DNA of 64,000 nt, from assembly GCA_947245585.1 (NCBI GenBank), contig CAMXPV010000017.1, positions 1-64,000 on the forward strand, written 5' to 3'. Shown in pieces: positions 38,960 to 60,765 of this stretch. The first letter of the stretch is position 1; every line of letters begins with the position of its first letter. This stretch comes from an uncultured Lachnospiraceae bacterium. GTDB lineage: Bacteria > Bacillota > Clostridia > Lachnospirales > Lachnospiraceae. The translations under genes were made by a program, and so were the position numbers. The notes below the pieces were generated by a model, which saw nothing but the letters and a program-made list of their open reading frames with translations, was not told where the DNA came from and ran no database searches.

Positions 38960-39073
38960 TAAAAATCTTGATTACGTGTAATCTGTTAAGGATAAAAATC
39001 TTGATTTCGTGTAAAATGGCGGTTATAAAAATCTTGATTATGTGTTATAATAAGTGGTGTAAAAATCTTGATT
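38960..39073. repeat. Four TAAAAATCTTGATT repeats with 33-34 bp period
   Basis: The 14-bp core TAAAAATCTTGATT occurs identically at 38960-38973, 38993-39006, 39026-39039 and 39060-39073. Three copies continue into a related NCGTGTAA- or ATGTGT-type extension. Periods are 33, 33 and 34 bp, about three helical turns. The array lies between divergent sigH and the DUF4143 ATPase gene. Confidence 0.85.
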
Positions 39074-39090
39074 CCCGCGAGCAATGAGCT

Positions 39091-39110
39091 GATTGGGCGA
39101 TGCCCAATCG
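39091..39110. repeat. Hairpin in the ATPase leader
   Basis: GATTGGGC and GCCCAATC form a perfect 8-bp stem with a 3-nt loop (GAT). A larger inverted repeat follows: CAACAACCCC (about 39151-39160) and GGGGGTTGTTG (about 39184-39194). Confidence 0.6.
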
Positions 39111-39223
39111 TCGGCTTGCGAAGCAGACATTTGGCGAATGCCGCGAGGGTCAACAACCCCGCCCCCTCTTATTGCTTTGAGATGGGGGTTGTTGGCTCGG
39201 GGAAAACGAAAAGAGGTGAATCC

Positions 39224-40576
39224 ATGAAACGTAAGATTTACGATGAGTTTTTACGGTGGAAGAGAGAAGGAAATGGAGAGACAGCTTTGCTGATCGATGG
39301 GGCACGCCGCGTAGGAAAAAGTTATATTGCAGAAGAATTTGCCAAGGCAGAATATAAAAGCTATATTTTGATTGATTTTAACAGGGTGGACGAAAGCGTA
39401 AAAGAGTTGTTTGTCCATTATTTGGACGATCTGGATGCGTTTTTTATGTATTTGTCCGGTTATTATAATGTGAAACTGTATGAAAGGGAATCTCTGCTTA
39501 TATTTGATGAAGTACAGCTTTTTCCCAGAGCGCGCACGGCGATCAAGTATCTTGTGGAAGACGGCAGATATGATTATATGGAAACGGGCTCTCTTATGTC
39601 TTTGAAAAGAAATGTGCAGGACATTGTGATTCCGTCCGAAGAGCGTCATATCAAGATGTTTCCTATGGATTTTGAGGAATTTTTATGGGCGCTTGGCAAT
39701 GATACGCTTATGGAAATTATGAAAAAAAGTTTTGCGGACAAAAAGCCGATGGGACAGGCTTTACATCGAAAAGCGATGGACTACTTTCGTCAATATTTGA
39801 TTGTCGGTGGTATGCCGCAGGCTGTACGGGAATATGCCGAAGGAAGGAATTTTGATAAAGTGGATCGTGTGAAACGGGATATTTTGACTCTTTATCGTGC
39901 GGATATGATTAAATATGCTGTTGGATATGAAATGAAGGTAGAAAGTATTTTTGATGAAATTCCCTCACAGCTTCAAAAACACGAGAAAAAGTTTAAGATT
40001 TCTTCCCTGAAAAAGGAGGCGCGCTTACGGGACTACGAGGATGCCATGTTCTGGTTGGACGATGCCATGATTGTTAATATCTGCTATCGTTCAACAGCGC
40101 CAAATATCGGTTTACGGCTGAACCGTGACCGCATGGCTTTAAAATGTTATATGGCGGACACCGGTTTATTGATCAGCCATGCCTTTGATGAAAACGGAAT
40201 TGTCAGCGAGGAGATCTATAAAAAACTGTTGTTTGATAAACTGGAAGTAAATAAAGGAATGATTGTGGAAAACGTTGTTGCGCAGATGTTGGCGGCAAAA
40301 GGGCATAAGCTTTACTTTTACTCGAACGCGTCCCGTTCAGACAGTTCGTCCCGAATGGAAATTGATTTTTTGATTGCAAAAAGTAAAATCAGCAGCCGGC
40401 ATAATATTTCCCCGATCGAAGTGAAATCCGGTAAAAATTATACGACTTCATCGCTGTGTAAGTTTATGGCAAAGTATGGGGAACAGACATATATCCCCTA
40501 TGTACTGCATACGGGGGATCTGAAAGAGGAAAATGGTATTGTATATCTGCCGCTTTATATGACGATGCGGTTGTAG
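39224..40576 (+). CDS. AAA ATPase with DUF4143 domain
   Basis: A 450-aa ATPase of the large AAA_14/DUF4143 family. Walker A is IDGARRVGKSYIAEEF (residues 24-39) and Walker B is LLIFDEVQ (91-98). YFRQYLIVGGMPQAV marks the linker, and the C-terminal DUF4143 domain has the PD-(D/E)XK-like FLIAKSK..ISPIEVKSGKN. Function is unproven; the family is highly multiplied in gut anaerobes and is suspected in conflict or mobile-element biology. ATG 39224 follows AAGAGGTG; upstream in-frame codons to 39068 cover hairpins and are unlikely to be translated. Confidence 0.88.
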   Translation: MKRKIYDEFLRWKREGNGETALLIDGARRVGKSYIAEEFAKAEYKSYILIDFNRVDESVKELFVHYLDDLDAFFMYLSGYYNVKLYERESLLIFDEVQLFPRARTAIKYLVEDGRYDYMETGSLMSLKRNVQDIVIPSEERHIKMFPMDFEEFLWALGNDTLMEIMKKSFADKKPMGQALHRKAMDYFRQYLIVGGMPQAVREYAEGRNFDKVDRVKRDILTLYRADMIKYAVGYEMKVESIFDEIPSQLQKHEKKFKISSLKKEARLRDYEDAMFWLDDAMIVNICYRSTAPNIGLRLNRDRMALKCYMADTGLLISHAFDENGIVSEEIYKKLLFDKLEVNKGMIVENVVAQMLAAKGHKLYFYSNASRSDSSSRMEIDFLIAKSKISSRHNISPIEVKSGKNYTTSSLCKFMAKYGEQTYIPYVLHTGDLKEENGIVYLPLYMTMRL

Positions 40577-42123: not shown

Positions 42124-42152
42124 TTGACTTTCCTCTTTGTGATAGCTAGAAT
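42124..42152 (+). promoter_or_regulatory. Promoter of the type III toxin-antitoxin locus
   Basis: TTGACT (42124-42129), 17-bp spacer, TAGAAT (42147-42152). Expected transcription start near 42159-42161 places the antitoxin repeats at the very 5' end of the RNA. Confidence 0.8.
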
Positions 42153-42163
42153 AAAAGCATAAG

Positions 42164-42260
42164 GAAAGTTTACCACTGACCGATATGTGGTATATAAATG
42201 GTCGGGTTGAAAGTTTACCGCTGACCAATATGCGGTATATAAATGGTTGGGTCGAAAGTA
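42164..42260 (+). ncRNA. CptI-like type III antitoxin RNA: two 45-nt repeats plus partial
   Basis: Two tandem 45-nt repeats (42164-42208, 42209-42253) are followed by GAAAGT of a third. In each unit, positions 9-13 (ACCAC / ACCGC) pair with 24-28 (GTGGT / GCGGT) and positions 15-19 (GACCG / GACCA) pair with 36-40 (TGGTC / TGGTT); the stems interleave as an H-type pseudoknot. Of five differences between copies, 12/25 covary (A-T to G-C), and 19 and 40 swap between Watson-Crick and G-U pairs. Type III antitoxins are exactly such repeat pseudoknots, and 45-nt units with just over two copies are known for CptI. Confidence 0.88.
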
Positions 42261-42261
42261 T

Positions 42262-42291
42262 AGTCCTTCGCCGTAAGGCGGGGGACTTTTT
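42262..42291 (+). terminator. Terminator/attenuator between antitoxin RNA and toxin
   Basis: An 11-bp stem, AGTCCTTCGCC (42262-42272) with GGCGGGGGACT (42277-42287), including two T-G pairs and a GTAA loop, followed by TTTTT. In type III loci this partial terminator sets the excess of antitoxin RNA over toxin mRNA. Confidence 0.88.
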
Positions 42292-42310
42292 CCATCAAGA
42301 GGATAAGCGA

Positions 42311-42799
42311 ATGAAGAAAACGGGGTTTTATATCATAAAGGATAAATTTTTTGAGGGTATGGCTGATCCGTACCTCAAAAGTAATAAAGCAGGGAACAGA
42401 CCACATTATTATTGCTTTGAAGATACGAATACAGGAATTTACTGGATGATACCTTTGTCCAGTCAAATTGATAAATATAAGCGGATTGTAGAAAAGAAAG
42501 AAAAAGCGGGAAAGCCCTGTGACATTATTCATATTGTGAAATTAGATGATAGCAGACAGAGTGTATTTTTGATACAGGATATGTTTCCGATAACAGATGA
42601 GTACATAGAACGGGAATATACCATAGCCGGAAATCATTTGATGTTGACAAGTGAGCATACTGTTAAAGAAATTGAACAGAAAGCCAAAAAGGTTATGGGT
42701 ATGTTGAAACGTGGTATGAAATTTACACCAACGCAGCCGAATGTGTTAGCTATATTAGAAAAGGTGAAAAAATCTAAATTGATACGAGGAATGAAATAA
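42311..42799 (+). CDS. cptN: CptN/ToxN-like endoribonuclease toxin (type III)
   Basis: A 162-aa toxin starting at ATG 42311 behind AAGAGGA. It opens MKKTGFYIIKDKFFEGMADP and contains KAGNRPHYYCFEDTNTGIYW, MIPLSSQIDKYKRIVEKKEK and LIQDMFPITDEYIEREYTIA, which I recognise as the CptN branch of ToxN/AbiQ-type RNases. These cut the repeat precursor RNA and cellular mRNAs and are inhibited by the pseudoknot RNA; several family members give phage abortive infection. Codons upstream to 42185 lie in the antitoxin repeats and are not a true extension. It overlaps the HAD gene by 1 nt. Confidence 0.88.
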   Translation: MKKTGFYIIKDKFFEGMADPYLKSNKAGNRPHYYCFEDTNTGIYWMIPLSSQIDKYKRIVEKKEKAGKPCDIIHIVKLDDSRQSVFLIQDMFPITDEYIEREYTIAGNHLMLTSEHTVKEIEQKAKKVMGMLKRGMKFTPTQPNVLAILEKVKKSKLIRGMK

Positions 42800-43308
42800 T
42801 GTCAAAAGTTATATTTCTGGACATAGATGGTGTGCTCAACTCAAATTTTTGGAATGATAGTCATCAGACAGAAATCAGCGATGGCACGTTGATTGACAAG
42901 GAGAAAATCAAACTGCTTGCGGGTTTGGTAAACGAGACAGATTCAGAAATCATTCTTCATTCAGGATGGCGGTTTTGGTTTGATGCCGACTTAAAACCAC
43001 TATGTGTGGAGGCAAATAGATTAGTTGAGTTATTAGAAAAAGTGAACTTGTATATAAGCGGAATAACTCCAGATTTGACGACAGAAGAAATTAGAAAAAC
43101 AAAGAAATTTAGTCTGGTAAAAGCTGATGAAATTTTGTTATGGTTAAATTTACATAATAGCGTTACAGAATGGGTAGTTCTTGATGACCTCGATTTGCAC
43201 AATGATTTAATCAGAAAGCACCATGTTAAAACGGATCAGACGATAGGACTGACTAAGGAGAATATAAAACAAGCTGTAAAGATTCTTTCAGGGCAATTAA
43301 AAAGTTGA
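42799..43308 (+). CDS. HAD phosphatase resembling RNA-repair-associated HAD (SAK type)
   Basis: A 169-aa HAD protein. Motif I is KVIFLDIDGVLNSNFW (Asp8, Asp10), motif II is IILHSGWRFWF (Ser55), and motif IV is EWVVLDDLDLHN (Asp129/130). The pattern fits the family called the HAD domain of Swiss-army-knife RNA repair proteins, predicted to trim RNA ends. It starts on the last base of the toxin stop (TAATG), so it is translationally coupled to the CptN-like RNase. A deleted copy lies at 45081. The RNA-repair role is inference. Confidence 0.8.
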   Translation: MSKVIFLDIDGVLNSNFWNDSHQTEISDGTLIDKEKIKLLAGLVNETDSEIILHSGWRFWFDADLKPLCVEANRLVELLEKVNLYISGITPDLTTEEIRKTKKFSLVKADEILLWLNLHNSVTEWVVLDDLDLHNDLIRKHHVKTDQTIGLTKENIKQAVKILSGQLKS

Positions 43309-43365
43309 TTAATTTTTAGGAATGGATATGGTATGAAAGATAGGGAAAAGGGATTCAGGAAAGCT

Positions 43366-44302: not shown

Positions 44303-44683
44303 TTACCATAGAGTTTTGACATTATACTTAGGTATTGTGCTGTCTTTTGTAATAATGATATAGTTTTCCGCGATAGCCTGTGAAATAATTAACCGGTCAA
44401 ATGGGTCTCCGTGAATTGCAGGGATTTGACTGATTTGGTCAAGATGAAGTGGTTTTATTGAAAGGATATCTAATTGCTCTTTTTCACAAGTTTCTGCAAT
44501 TTTAGAAATAGAACTTTTAATTTGAAGTTTTCCAATGCTTGATTTAATTGCAATTTCCCACATGGAAACAATACTTACACAGATTTTAACGTCATTATGG
44601 TAAATTATGTTCGATGCTTTTGGGGAAAGTTTTCCACTGTCATATAAAAAGTATAATAAAGCATTTGTGTCCAGTAGATACAT
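44303..44683 (-). CDS. PIN-domain toxin (VapC-like)
   Basis: A 126-aa PIN toxin of the Sll0205-like group. The acidic residues are present: Asp5 in YLLDTNALLYFL, Glu in SMWEIAIKSSIGKL, Asp in GDPFDRLIISQA, and the end TKDSTIPKYNV. It is a predicted RNase. The ATG overlaps the stop of the upstream DUF2281 antitoxin. It is the fourth PIN protein in the window and belongs to a different subgroup from those at 5136 and 14351. Confidence 0.88.
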   Translation of the reverse strand: MYLLDTNALLYFLYDSGKLSPKASNIIYHNDVKICVSIVSMWEIAIKSSIGKLQIKSSISKIAETCEKEQLDILSIKPLHLDQISQIPAIHGDPFDRLIISQAIAENYIIITKDSTIPKYNVKTLW

Positions 44684-44910
44684 TATATATACTCCTTAAA
44701 ACATTCCGGTGTTTCATCGAAATTTTCTGCCATCATAATAAATTCATCAGCTAATGGATTTATTGATCTATGAAACGCAATATTATTGTTTGTAGGTTTT
44801 TTCTGTTCGTTTTGAGCGGAATATTTTAAAAATCTCATAAATTCGATTACTTGCTCTATTTTATCTTCGGAAAGATCTTTCGCTTCTTTAATTAAAATAT
44901 CATATGCCAT
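44683..44910 (-). CDS. DUF2281-type antitoxin
   Basis: A 75-aa protein from ATG 44910: MAYDILIKEAKDLSEDKIEQ VIEFMRFLKY-type opening followed by a C-terminal part rich in acidic residues (EFIMMAENFDETPECFKEYI). DUF2281 proteins are antitoxins for PIN toxins. The site GAAAGGG lies upstream. It precedes and overlaps the toxin, the standard antitoxin-first order. Confidence 0.8.
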   Translation of the reverse strand: MAYDILIKEAKDLSEDKIEQVIEFMRFLKYSAQNEQKKPTNNNIAFHRSINPLADEFIMMAENFDETPECFKEYI

Positions 44911-45080
44911 AAACACACACCCTTTCGAGACATGATATATTTATTTAGGTAATAATATATGCAAATATATAAATTATTATAAAGCGTACTTTCTATCATT
45001 TTAAAATATGATATAATTACAATCAAAGTATAACAAAATTATATAGAAAAAACAATAATATTTATATGAGGATCGAAATA
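44911..45080. other. AT-rich intergenic region
   Basis: Very AT-rich DNA between the PIN module and the HAD remnant. It must hold the module promoter on the minus strand, but I could not pick one -35/-10 pair with confidence. Confidence 0.3.
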
Positions 45081-45243
45081 ATGTCAAAAGCTATATTTCT
45101 GGATATAGATGGTGTGCTCAACTCAAATTTTTGGAATGATAGTCATCAGACAGCATCATGTGAAAACAGATCAGACAATAGGACTGACCAAGGAGAATGT
45201 AAAACAAGCTGTAAAGATTCTATCGGGGCAATTAAAAAGTTGA
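45081..45243 (+). pseudogene. HAD gene copy with internal deletion
   Basis: The first 25 codons (MSKAIFLDIDGVLNSNFWND SHQT-type) match the HAD gene at 42799 almost exactly; after CAGACAG the sequence jumps to the 3' end (GCATCATGTGAAAACAGATC through GGGCAATTAAAAAGTTGA), matching 43212-43308. About 345 bp are lost, with an AG microhomology at the junction, and the frame is broken after residue 24. Confidence 0.85.
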
Positions 45244-45299
45244 TTTATTTTAAGGAATAAGTTGCTGTCTACAACTGTCTACCAATTCTATAGACACAT

Positions 45300-45346: not shown

Positions 45347-45419
45347 AGCTGCTGACGGGAATCGGACCCGTGACCTCCGCACTACCAATGCGACGCTCTA
45401 CCGACTGAGCCACAGCAGC
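45347..45419 (-). tRNA. tRNA-Thr (anticodon GGT)
   Basis: The minus strand folds as a 73-nt tRNA: acceptor GCTGCTG/CAGCAGC, D arm GCTC-AGTCGGTA-GAGC, anticodon stem TCGCA/TGCGG with loop TTGGTAG giving anticodon GGT, and T arm ACGGG-TCCGATT-CCCGT. The discriminator is T and no CCA is encoded. It reads ACC (and ACU) codons. Confidence 0.95.
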
Positions 45420-48976: not shown

Positions 48977-50385
48977 AGAGGATAAATGAAATTTTGGCCG
49001 TAGTCATCATATCGCTGATGGGAGTACTTGTGGCGGCGGTAGGACTGCGGGTATACGACACTTATATGACAAACAGGGAGATCAGGACGCAGATCAAAAA
49101 ACAGGAGCAGGTTCTCGCCAGAAACCGGGAGAACCATGACCGTGTGCAGGAGATGCGTCAGGAGATTCAGGAGTTGTCGGCGGACAGGGAAAAGCTGCAG
49201 CAGTTTTTGGATGAGATACGGCTTGAAAATCAGGAGACAGTTCCGGCTGCGTCCATGACGGAGCCGTTTGAACCAGGGGACAGCGGAATGTCCGGACATG
49301 AAAGTATGTCGGAGAATACGCCGGATATCCCGGCAGATATGGTGCAGTCCAGTATGTCCGGCAATGACACGATGTCCGGTAATGAACTGAGTATGTCGGG
49401 CAATGAACTGAGTATGTCGGGTAACAGCACCATGTCAGGAAACGGGCTTAGTATGTCGGGCAACTCTACTATGTCCGGGAACGGGCTCAGCATGTCAGGC
49501 AACTCTACCATGTCGGGAAATGGCCTTAGCATGTCTGATAACAGCACGATGTCAGGGAACGGCCTTAGCATGTCGGGCAACTCTACCATGTCCGGAAATA
49601 TGTTGGATGTTTTGACGGGGCTTGTGCGGCCGAAGATTTCACTGGAGGAGCGCAGGCGGAACAGAACATCTCTGGAGGAGACCTTCGTGGCCAACATGGA
49701 AGACCAAATGTGTCTGGAAAACAGCCGGATTGATTTTTCCGATAAAAAGATTGCCTGTCTGGGAGACAGCATTACGGCGGCAGCCAATCTGGAGGATGAG
49801 GAGAATTATCGTTCCTATGCCTACCCTGCGGTGCTCGGAGAGATTCTGGATGCTGACGAGGTGTACAATCTGGGCATTGGCGGTTCCTCCATCGGGCGGT
49901 ATTGGGCGGATGCTTTTGTGGAGCGCTATACCGAGATTCCGGAGGATACGGATATCATCATTGTCATGGGAGGGACGAACGATGGGTTCTGTCTTTCAGA
50001 GGAGGAGTTTGGTACGCTTTCGGAGAGGGAGCCATGGACTTTCTGCGGTGATCTGGATGAACTGATGCGGGGGCTTAAGGAGAATTATCCGGATGCGGAG
50101 ATATACTTTGTCACACCACTTCCGAATATTTTACAGGATTATCTGATGAGGGAGCGCGACTATCTTTTGCCCCAGAGTAATCTGGTGAATGTGATACTGA
50201 CACTGTCCGAGGAATATGATTTTAAGGTGATTGACCTGTACAATTCCAATATACTGGATTCCCACGATGCAGATATCGTGGCTGACTATGTGCCGGACGG
50301 CGTACATGCAAGCAAGGCAGGATATCGGATTCTTGCAGAGCACATTGCGGCGGAAATGGTGCGCAGTTATGAAGAAGAGGAGTGA
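48973..50385 (+). CDS. Membrane-anchored SGNH hydrolase with MSGN-repeat linker
   Basis: A 470-aa protein. Residues 8-27 are a membrane anchor, 33-86 a coiled coil (IRTQIKKQEQVLARNRENHD), and about 103-210 a linker of 15 Met-Ser-Gly-Asn-like motifs alternating as MSGNST and MSGNGLS. The SGNH hydrolase domain runs from 255 to 465: CLGDSITAA (block I), GIGGSSI (II), VMGGTNDG (III) and DGVHAS (V). It should act outside the cell as an esterase on a glycan or lipid. The ATG overlaps the rlmB stop. Confidence 0.85.
   Translation: MKRINEILAVVIISLMGVLVAAVGLRVYDTYMTNREIRTQIKKQEQVLARNRENHDRVQEMRQEIQELSADREKLQQFLDEIRLENQETVPAASMTEPFEPGDSGMSGHESMSENTPDIPADMVQSSMSGNDTMSGNELSMSGNELSMSGNSTMSGNGLSMSGNSTMSGNGLSMSGNSTMSGNGLSMSDNSTMSGNGLSMSGNSTMSGNMLDVLTGLVRPKISLEERRRNRTSLEETFVANMEDQMCLENSRIDFSDKKIACLGDSITAAANLEDEENYRSYAYPAVLGEILDADEVYNLGIGGSSIGRYWADAFVERYTEIPEDTDIIIVMGGTNDGFCLSEEEFGTLSEREPWTFCGDLDELMRGLKENYPDAEIYFVTPLPNILQDYLMRERDYLLPQSNLVNVILTLSEEYDFKVIDLYNSNILDSHDADIVADYVPDGVHASKAGYRILAEHIAAEMVRSYEEEE
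49288..49602 (+). repeat. MSGN coding repeats (39-bp units within the SGNH gene)
   Basis: Tandem units encode MSGNST-MSGNGLS (13 codons, 39 bp), preceded by shorter ELS-type units. Ser codons switch among TCC, TCG and TCA and Gly among GGC, GGG, GGA and GGT, so nucleotide identity is lower than peptide identity. Confidence 0.85.
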
Positions 50386-60530: not shown

Positions 60531-60576
60531 CAGAAGAGCAGACGAATGCTATGATTGTTCTAACATTATAGAGTTT

Positions 60577-60741
60577 TGATAGAGGTTGCGTTTTCTATCA
60601 GTACGGGTACGGATGTGGCAGGCACAGAAGAAGCGCCCGGAAAGGAGAAGACGCCGAAAGGGGAGACGGCCTGAACGTTTTTGCCTTGGGCATACAGTTA
60701 AGAGCTGTATGACTGTCATCGATACGATGGGGCGCTATCCA
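60577..60741 (+). promoter_or_regulatory. Lysine riboswitch (L box) of dapA
   Basis: The leader has the lysine-sensing pattern in order: GATAGAGGTTGCG, ATCAGTA, CCGGAAAGGAGAAGACGCCG, the GGGGAGACGGCC arm, TTGGGCATACAGTTAAG with TGTATGACTGTCA, and the closing GGGGCGCTATCC, which pairs with GATAG to form P1. High lysine should favour the terminator that follows. Fits control of dapA-dapB. Confidence 0.92.
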
Positions 60742-60765
60742 GAACGGTAACAGTAGAACTGTGTG

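Follow-up and report, generated by a model that had tools for sequence, protein, structure and literature searches.

Within the window, a 64,000-nt stretch of a contig from an uncultured Lachnospiraceae bacterium, a promoter-like site, two short tandem repeats, a hairpin and a 162-codon reading frame follow one another closely on the plus strand, and the question this locus raises is whether these parts form a working unit, to which family that unit belongs, and what it does for the cell that carries it. We propose, with a probability of roughly 95%, that the locus is a chromosomal CptIN type III toxin-antitoxin cassette, whose toxin would be an RNase neutralised by RNA; this figure covers the identity of the locus and that mechanism, and the role of the cassette is weighed separately. 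The parts are as follows:

42124-42152, plus strand: predicted sigma-70-type promoter, TTGACT-17 nt-TAGAAT, read from the sequence, with a 17-nt spacing common to the loci compared.
42166-42210, plus strand: CptI antitoxin repeat 1, 45 nt, matching the published E. rectale CptI primer for a single repeat at all 45 positions.
42211-42255, plus strand: CptI antitoxin repeat 2, 45 nt, with 5 differences from repeat 1.
42256-42261, plus strand: partial third repeat AAGTAT, read from the sequence, a 5/6 match to AAGTTT.
42262-42291, plus strand: predicted intrinsic terminator, an 11-pair stem (42262-42287) and a T run, between antitoxin and toxin.
42297-42303, plus strand: predicted ribosome-binding site AAGAGGA, read from the sequence, 7 nt 5' of the toxin ATG.
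42311-42799, plus strand: CptN toxin, an endoribonuclease by homology, 162 aa, matching NCBIfam NF047359.1 and PDB 4rmo_A.

The toxin frame, 162 codons from an ATG at 42311 to a stop codon at 42797-42799, is the one that the initial annotation had described, and its product scores 180.7 bits (E 1.5e-53) against the NCBIfam CptIN equivalog NF047359.1, whose cut-off is 90. Its best structural relative in a search of PDB sequences is CptN (4rmo_A, E 2.1e-76), and 112 of 151 aligned residues are identical to those of the crystallised Eubacterium rectale protein. A homology search, which the initial annotation had named as a possible refutation of its CptIN call, places the toxin inside the CptN family, and that call is borne out by the NCBIfam score, the match to 4rmo_A and the identity of repeat 1. 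An accompanying warning, that protein-centred annotation would miss the RNA or extend the toxin frame into it, holds in part: NCBIfam names the toxin as CptN, whereas the RNA does escape the covariance-model search suggested at the time, no Rfam 15 family reaching its gathering score at the locus (five matches, each below gathering). The toxin frame does stay open upstream through the repeats, back to an ATG at 42185 that would give 204 aa. Alignments gathered here could seed an Rfam family for this RNA. Elsewhere in the same genome, a 96% complete assembly, we found no second copy of the protein or of the repeats.

Most of the residues implicated in the published account of E. rectale CptIN (PMC4627078, drawn on here in excerpt) have counterparts in the window toxin. 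Asp80, Ser84 and Tyr103 correspond to Asp81, Ser85 and Tyr104 of CptN_Er, which that account names, and Ser50 and Ser51 correspond to residues 51-52, which we equate by inference with its two serines. CptN_Er Arg53 is replaced by Gln52; among 66 full-length toxins, the window's included, this position holds Arg in 43, Gln in 18, Lys in 4 and His in 1. If Arg53 is the arginine of the reported ‘Ser-Ser/Thr-Arg’ triad, which carries no residue number in the excerpted text of PMC4627078, then one reported active-site residue differs here.

The antitoxin side of the locus is a tandem array at 42164-42259 (period 45, 2.1 copies, score 157), in agreement with the earlier description of two 45-nt repeats plus a 6-nt third. 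Repeat 1 is the reverse complement of the single-repeat primer reported for E. rectale CptI (PMC4627078, in excerpt) over 45/45 nt. Numbered after the published CptI, the two repeats differ at positions 10, 17, 23, 38 and 43; these are the five differences already noted in the initial annotation as 12, 19, 25, 40 and 45, its count having begun 2 nt upstream. Relative to repeat 1, two pairs of repeat 2 are changed on both sides. Both repeats carry A29 and U30 of loop L2, which are reported as required for CptI_Er antitoxicity, and the CptI_Er product has its 3' end at A45 (both PMC4627078, in excerpt); by analogy, AAGTAT may possibly supply the 3' half of the final GA^AAGU cleavage site here.

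Does this RNA fold as its E. rectale counterpart does? The loops given in PMC4627078 (L1, G13 alone; L2, A27 to G35; in excerpt) imply stems S1 at 7-11/22-26 and S2 at 15-19/36-40, a pair list that we derive from those limits. Across 33 distinct repeat sequences, taken from 63 two-repeat and 10 one-repeat loci, these pairs hold in 99.4% of 330 cells, and two of them are changed on both sides, in 28 cells: pair 10-23 is GC in 17 of the distinct repeats, AU in 15 and GU in 1, and pair 17-38 is GC in 15, AU in 13 and GU in 5. Sliding the partner columns by 1-3 lowers the paired share to 20.6-44.5%, and none of 500 shuffles matches the paired percentage, the both-side cells or the covariation score of the stems in the published topology. 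Two other measures are unremarkable, with values as high in 134 of the 500 shuffles for both-side pairs and in 482 for pair types. Most of this covariation may go back to a single ancient divergence between the two repeats, with few independent events. An H-type pseudoknot with S1, S2, a one-base L1 and a 9-nt L2, as the initial annotation had proposed in outline, is strongly supported by pairing and covariation on the topology taken from the excerpted paper.

In detail, the joint change that had been reported at 12 and 25, our 10 and 23, is real. The second stem proposed alongside it can accommodate both of the changes assigned to it, but lies two nucleotides out of register with the published loops, which bring positions 19 and 40, earlier paired separately, together in pair 17-38. 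That second stem, 13-17/34-38, pairs in 98.8% of cells with one-sided changes only, and its register likewise outscores its own slides and shuffles. Taken over the whole structure, the covariation score is 0.215 in this register and 0.227 in the one from the published loops; both-side changes affect one pair (15 cells) in the former and two pairs (28 cells) in the latter. The combination of A17 with C38 occurs in none of the 33 distinct repeats, an absence that the earlier register leaves unexplained. Since the scores are close and the shared history of the repeats probably lies behind most changes, the counts alone are not decisive between the two, and we reject the earlier register chiefly on the loop limits given in the excerpted paper.

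The signals around the repeats gain their weight from comparison with other loci. Promoter-like sites in the window (4, against a shuffle mean of 4.4) are by themselves not above chance; the pattern TTGACN-17-TANNNT precedes repeat 1 in 65 of 67 loci, so that the promoter with 17-bp spacing described earlier is weak alone and kept among relatives. The same holds for the terminator, whose 11-bp stem had also been recognised: one is found where shuffles average 0.5 (sd 0.7), and a loose terminator text is matched in 61/67 loci. These 67 are the loci in which a repeat can be recognised and the upstream sequence runs to 260 nt or more; they come from a set of 81, comprising the window and the best 80 of 123 relatives, in which distant loci are under-sampled.

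Repeats were called in these sequences at 29/45 matches or more. Over 82 loci, among them L001, which is a second copy of the window's own, two repeats are present in 64, one in 10 and none in 8, and 7 of the last 8 have 142 nt or less upstream. Between pairs of the 56 loci that have a full-length toxin and both repeats (from the best 80 of 123 plus the window), fourfold sites differ by 51.3% on average and toxin amino acids by 12.7%; the corresponding means for repeat 1 and repeat 2 are 2.5% and 4.0%. On the toxin-gene tree, the number of parsimony steps per site falls in the same order, from 7.38 for third and 2.01 for first codon positions to 1.00 for repeat 2 and 0.71 for repeat 1, and repeat 1 is the same as in the window in 46 of 63 loci. 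Both the low divergence of the repeats and their low step counts argue that the RNA is under far stronger constraint than the toxin gene. The 56 loci thereby form a natural test set in which a nearly single RNA sequence is paired with toxins 12.7% apart on average, and in which one can probe how a toxin drifts without losing its RNA partner.

Within this constraint, the two repeats are consistently different from each other. Pair 10-23 is A-U in repeat 1 and G-C in repeat 2 in 52 of the 56 loci; the exceptions are G-C in both repeats in 3 and A-U in both in 1. Repeat 1 combines a weaker S1 (A10-U23) with a stronger S2 (G17-C38), and repeat 2 the reverse, G10-C23 in S1 and A/G17-U38 in S2. Two repeats inside one locus differ by 4.5 bases on average over the 56 loci, and repeat 1 is about as far per site from repeat 2 of its own locus (0.101) as from that of different loci (0.105), against 0.025 between one repeat 1 and another. 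Steps at positions 17, 33 and 43 number 9, 11 and 11 in repeat 2 and 2, 4 and 0 in repeat 1. The two repeats thus appear from these alignments to keep separate identities, without homogenisation, across many genomes, and this is the mildly new point of our analysis.

A second set of 29 loci (L083-L111), some of them likely the same assemblies as loci in the set of 81, has 20 two-repeat loci in which pair 10-23 is A-U then G-C in 15, G-C in both repeats in 4 and A-U in both in 1, one locus (L098) having been left out, as its 24/45 match is a chance one and its GC/AT entry not real, and another (L089) being cut by masked bases. Two more distant members of this second set, L099 and L103, with toxins of 72% and 59% identity, have G-C at 10-23 in both repeats, which suggests that the asymmetry may have arisen within the window's lineage. 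It may be functional, may guard against slippage between identical repeats, or may be inheritance under constraint; the repeat difference suggests a reason of the first or second kind, a functional division or slippage resistance. A transcript carries two repeats, as many as there are RNAs in the solved ring, and it is conceivable, though we think it improbable, that repeat 1 and repeat 2 are two kept forms and no interchangeable copies, and that one transcript could give an ordered, mixed pair of them for one ring, with the forms differing in processing rate or turnover. An absolute need for two different repeats is not supported: 4 of the 56 loci with full-length toxins are alike at 10-23, and L066 has one repeat and an intact toxin.

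How would such a cassette work? Onto the parts, family membership, pair covariation, RNA constraint and compact conserved outline that we observe here, we map a mechanism in which cleavage, ring, toxicity, neutralisation and plasmid stabilisation are all carried over from E. rectale CptIN. The promoter would drive an RNA in which the 45-nt repeat occurs twice. This precursor would be cleaved after A45 in each repeat by CptN, whose RNase fold is that of ToxN/Kid, and each 45-nt product would fold into an H-type pseudoknot, lodge between two CptN molecules and close with them into an inactive 2:2 ring. The terminator ahead of the toxin gene would hold the toxin scarce relative to the antitoxin, and upon loss of the cassette or a stop in transcription the RNA would run out, leaving free CptN to cut cellular RNA. 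CptI RNAs are reported to be specific (PMC4627078, in excerpt), so neutralisation of the window toxin by its own RNA is to be expected by analogy.

By the same analogy, the cassette most likely serves its own retention, or addiction, a role that we favour over phage defence because E. rectale CptIN stabilised a plasmid and was without effect on >200 coliphages in E. coli (PMC4627078, in excerpt). The outline of the cassette is sharp: among the best 80 of 123 relatives plus the window, DNA similarity sets in between 42050 and 42149 for 67 of the 81 loci, and for 74 of them it stops between 42750 and 42799. Outside it, only L002 matches the window's flanks. For the other 80 of the 81 loci, blastn at E 1e-8 finds no flanking DNA in common with the window, using flanks of up to 5 kb, often cut by contig ends, a comparison in which diverged neighbours could be missed. 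With similarity confined in this way, the cassette seems to travel as a unit of about 750 bp. Carriage of close relatives by phages or plasmids was considered as a vehicle and rejected: in IMG/VR, 14 stretches fit the peptide pattern and none encodes a relative, in a search that reaches close relatives only, and the relatives in plasmid records (6, all below 60% identity) and phage records (1, at 28.2% identity) are distant.

The initial annotation had suggested that the system may block phages, and a version of this is the alternative that survives best: phage takeover would halt transcription, CptI would decay, and CptN would stop the infected cell in an abortive infection. The related ToxIN and TenpIN systems can confer phage resistance (PMC4627078 and the review PMC5086642, both in excerpt), and a VapBC-like pair and a PADLOC candidate defence gene lie near the cassette. 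CptIN systems themselves have so far given no such effect: besides the null result with CptIN_Er against coliphages, Ruminococcus torques CptIN showed no anti-phage activity, making two CptIN systems tested and inactive according to the excerpted PMC5086642, both of them in E. coli rather than in the native host. PADLOC returns no match for the window toxin. The earlier suggestion is thus unsupported, and we consider phage defence an unlikely role beside retention.

Far less probable is that the locus is a decaying remnant, in which RNA and reading frame persist around a toxin already dead, for example through Gln52 or through changes in its tail. Decay is indeed common among relatives. Of the 81 loci (the best 80 of 123 plus the window), 11 end too near upstream, and of the 70 kept, with at least 200 nt, 16 have toxins that a strict rule counts as broken. 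Among these broken toxins the rule counts that of L013, where the alignment shows no start codon at the expected position, and that of L074, whose C-terminus is unaligned; either may function. Two repeats are present in 62 of the 70 loci, with 53 toxins intact and 9 broken; one repeat is present in 7, with 1 intact (L066) and 6 broken; and the 1 locus with no repeat is broken, an association between repeat number and toxin state of p 6.7e-5 by Fisher's test with loci counted as if unrelated. Either toxin death lets repeat loss pass, or a live toxin wants two repeats. The window falls on the intact side of this division, with a full-length toxin, the named residues kept and two repeats, promoter and terminator intact, and from its intact frame, the kept residues and the constraint on the RNA we infer that the locus is probably active in its organism.

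L066 (4890-5456), in which one CptI repeat precedes an intact toxin frame beginning with GTG, looks like a natural one-repeat system. In a same-family sample of 397 genomes, the window's included, 64 have a CptN relative and 34 have repeats, and 7 of these 34 (G151, G172, G181, G184, G218, G250 and G329) lack a match in the toxin search. The contig of G151 stops at the repeats; in G250 (L126), both repeats and the terminator are still followed by the start of a toxin gene that appears internally deleted. In L126, L138, L139 and L140, CptI repeats adjoin toxin genes that look deleted, frameshifted or truncated, and in the last three a single repeat is fused directly to the terminator.

Next to the toxin lies a HAD_SAK_2 ‘RNA repair’ gene (42799-43308; Pfam, 101.9 bits), whose product would, in a tripartite system, mend what CptN cuts. 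Such a system can be dismissed despite the one-base overlap of this gene with the toxin stop (TAATG, 42797-42801), since a HAD relative adjoins cptN in only 2 of the 81 loci (the window and L002, among the best 80 of 123 plus the window; four others, L044, L049, L065 and L073, with <300 nt downstream, could hide one), the one in L002 aligns as two pieces with a gap, and the window has a second, shortened HAD copy 2.3 kb away. That second copy, at 45049-45258, is internally shortened and includes the junction with the toxin 3' end: 42767-42871 is repeated at 45049-45153 and 43210-43323 at 45145-45258, each at 90%.

Several other features share the window with the cassette. The VapBC-like pair (44303-44916, minus strand) consists of a PIN-domain protein and a DUF2281/VapB-like protein, with NCBIfam matches below cut-off, and adjoins a tRNA gene at 45347-45419. 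Upstream, at 39068-40576 on the plus strand, lies an AAA_14/DUF4143 ATPase gene that scores 382.8 bits against PDC-S01, a candidate defence family in PADLOC. The stretch 49351-49599 is made up of tandem repeats whose periods are 21, 39 and 78 nt (consensus ATGTCGGGCAACTCTACC...), and a lysine riboswitch (106.6 bits) is found at 60572-60745 on the plus strand.

Among known systems, the addiction cassette that we propose is a further member of the structurally solved CptIN family, and as such it is of minor importance, repeat 1 of its RNA being identical to the crystallised one; the asymmetry of its repeats is a modest lead. Its closest counterpart is E. rectale CptIN (PDB 4RMO; Rao et al. 2015, PMC4627078, in excerpt), which likewise has two repeats 5' of the toxin and whose toxin processes its RNA and is neutralised by it in a 2:2 ring. 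The RNA comparison with that system is limited to repeat 1 and the published primer, and the window toxin differs from CptN_Er in that Arg53 is replaced by Gln, one residue is missing around position 41 and the tail extends further. The CptIN systems of Ruminococcus torques L2-14 and Coprococcus catus GD-7 resemble the window's in family and organisation, as judged by their description in the same paper, which reports that the three CptIN toxins are 35-44% identical to one another, without cross-neutralisation. ToxIN/AbiQ and TenpIN are reported to follow the same type III logic with a related toxin fold; the window toxin falls below the cut-offs of both, at 15.7 bits against a gathering score of 25 for Pfam ToxN_toxin (PF13958) and 17.7 against 90 for NCBIfam TenpIN, and ToxI_Pa is described as having 36-nt repeats and a heterohexamer ring (PMC4627078, in excerpt), in contrast to the 45-nt repeats of the window.
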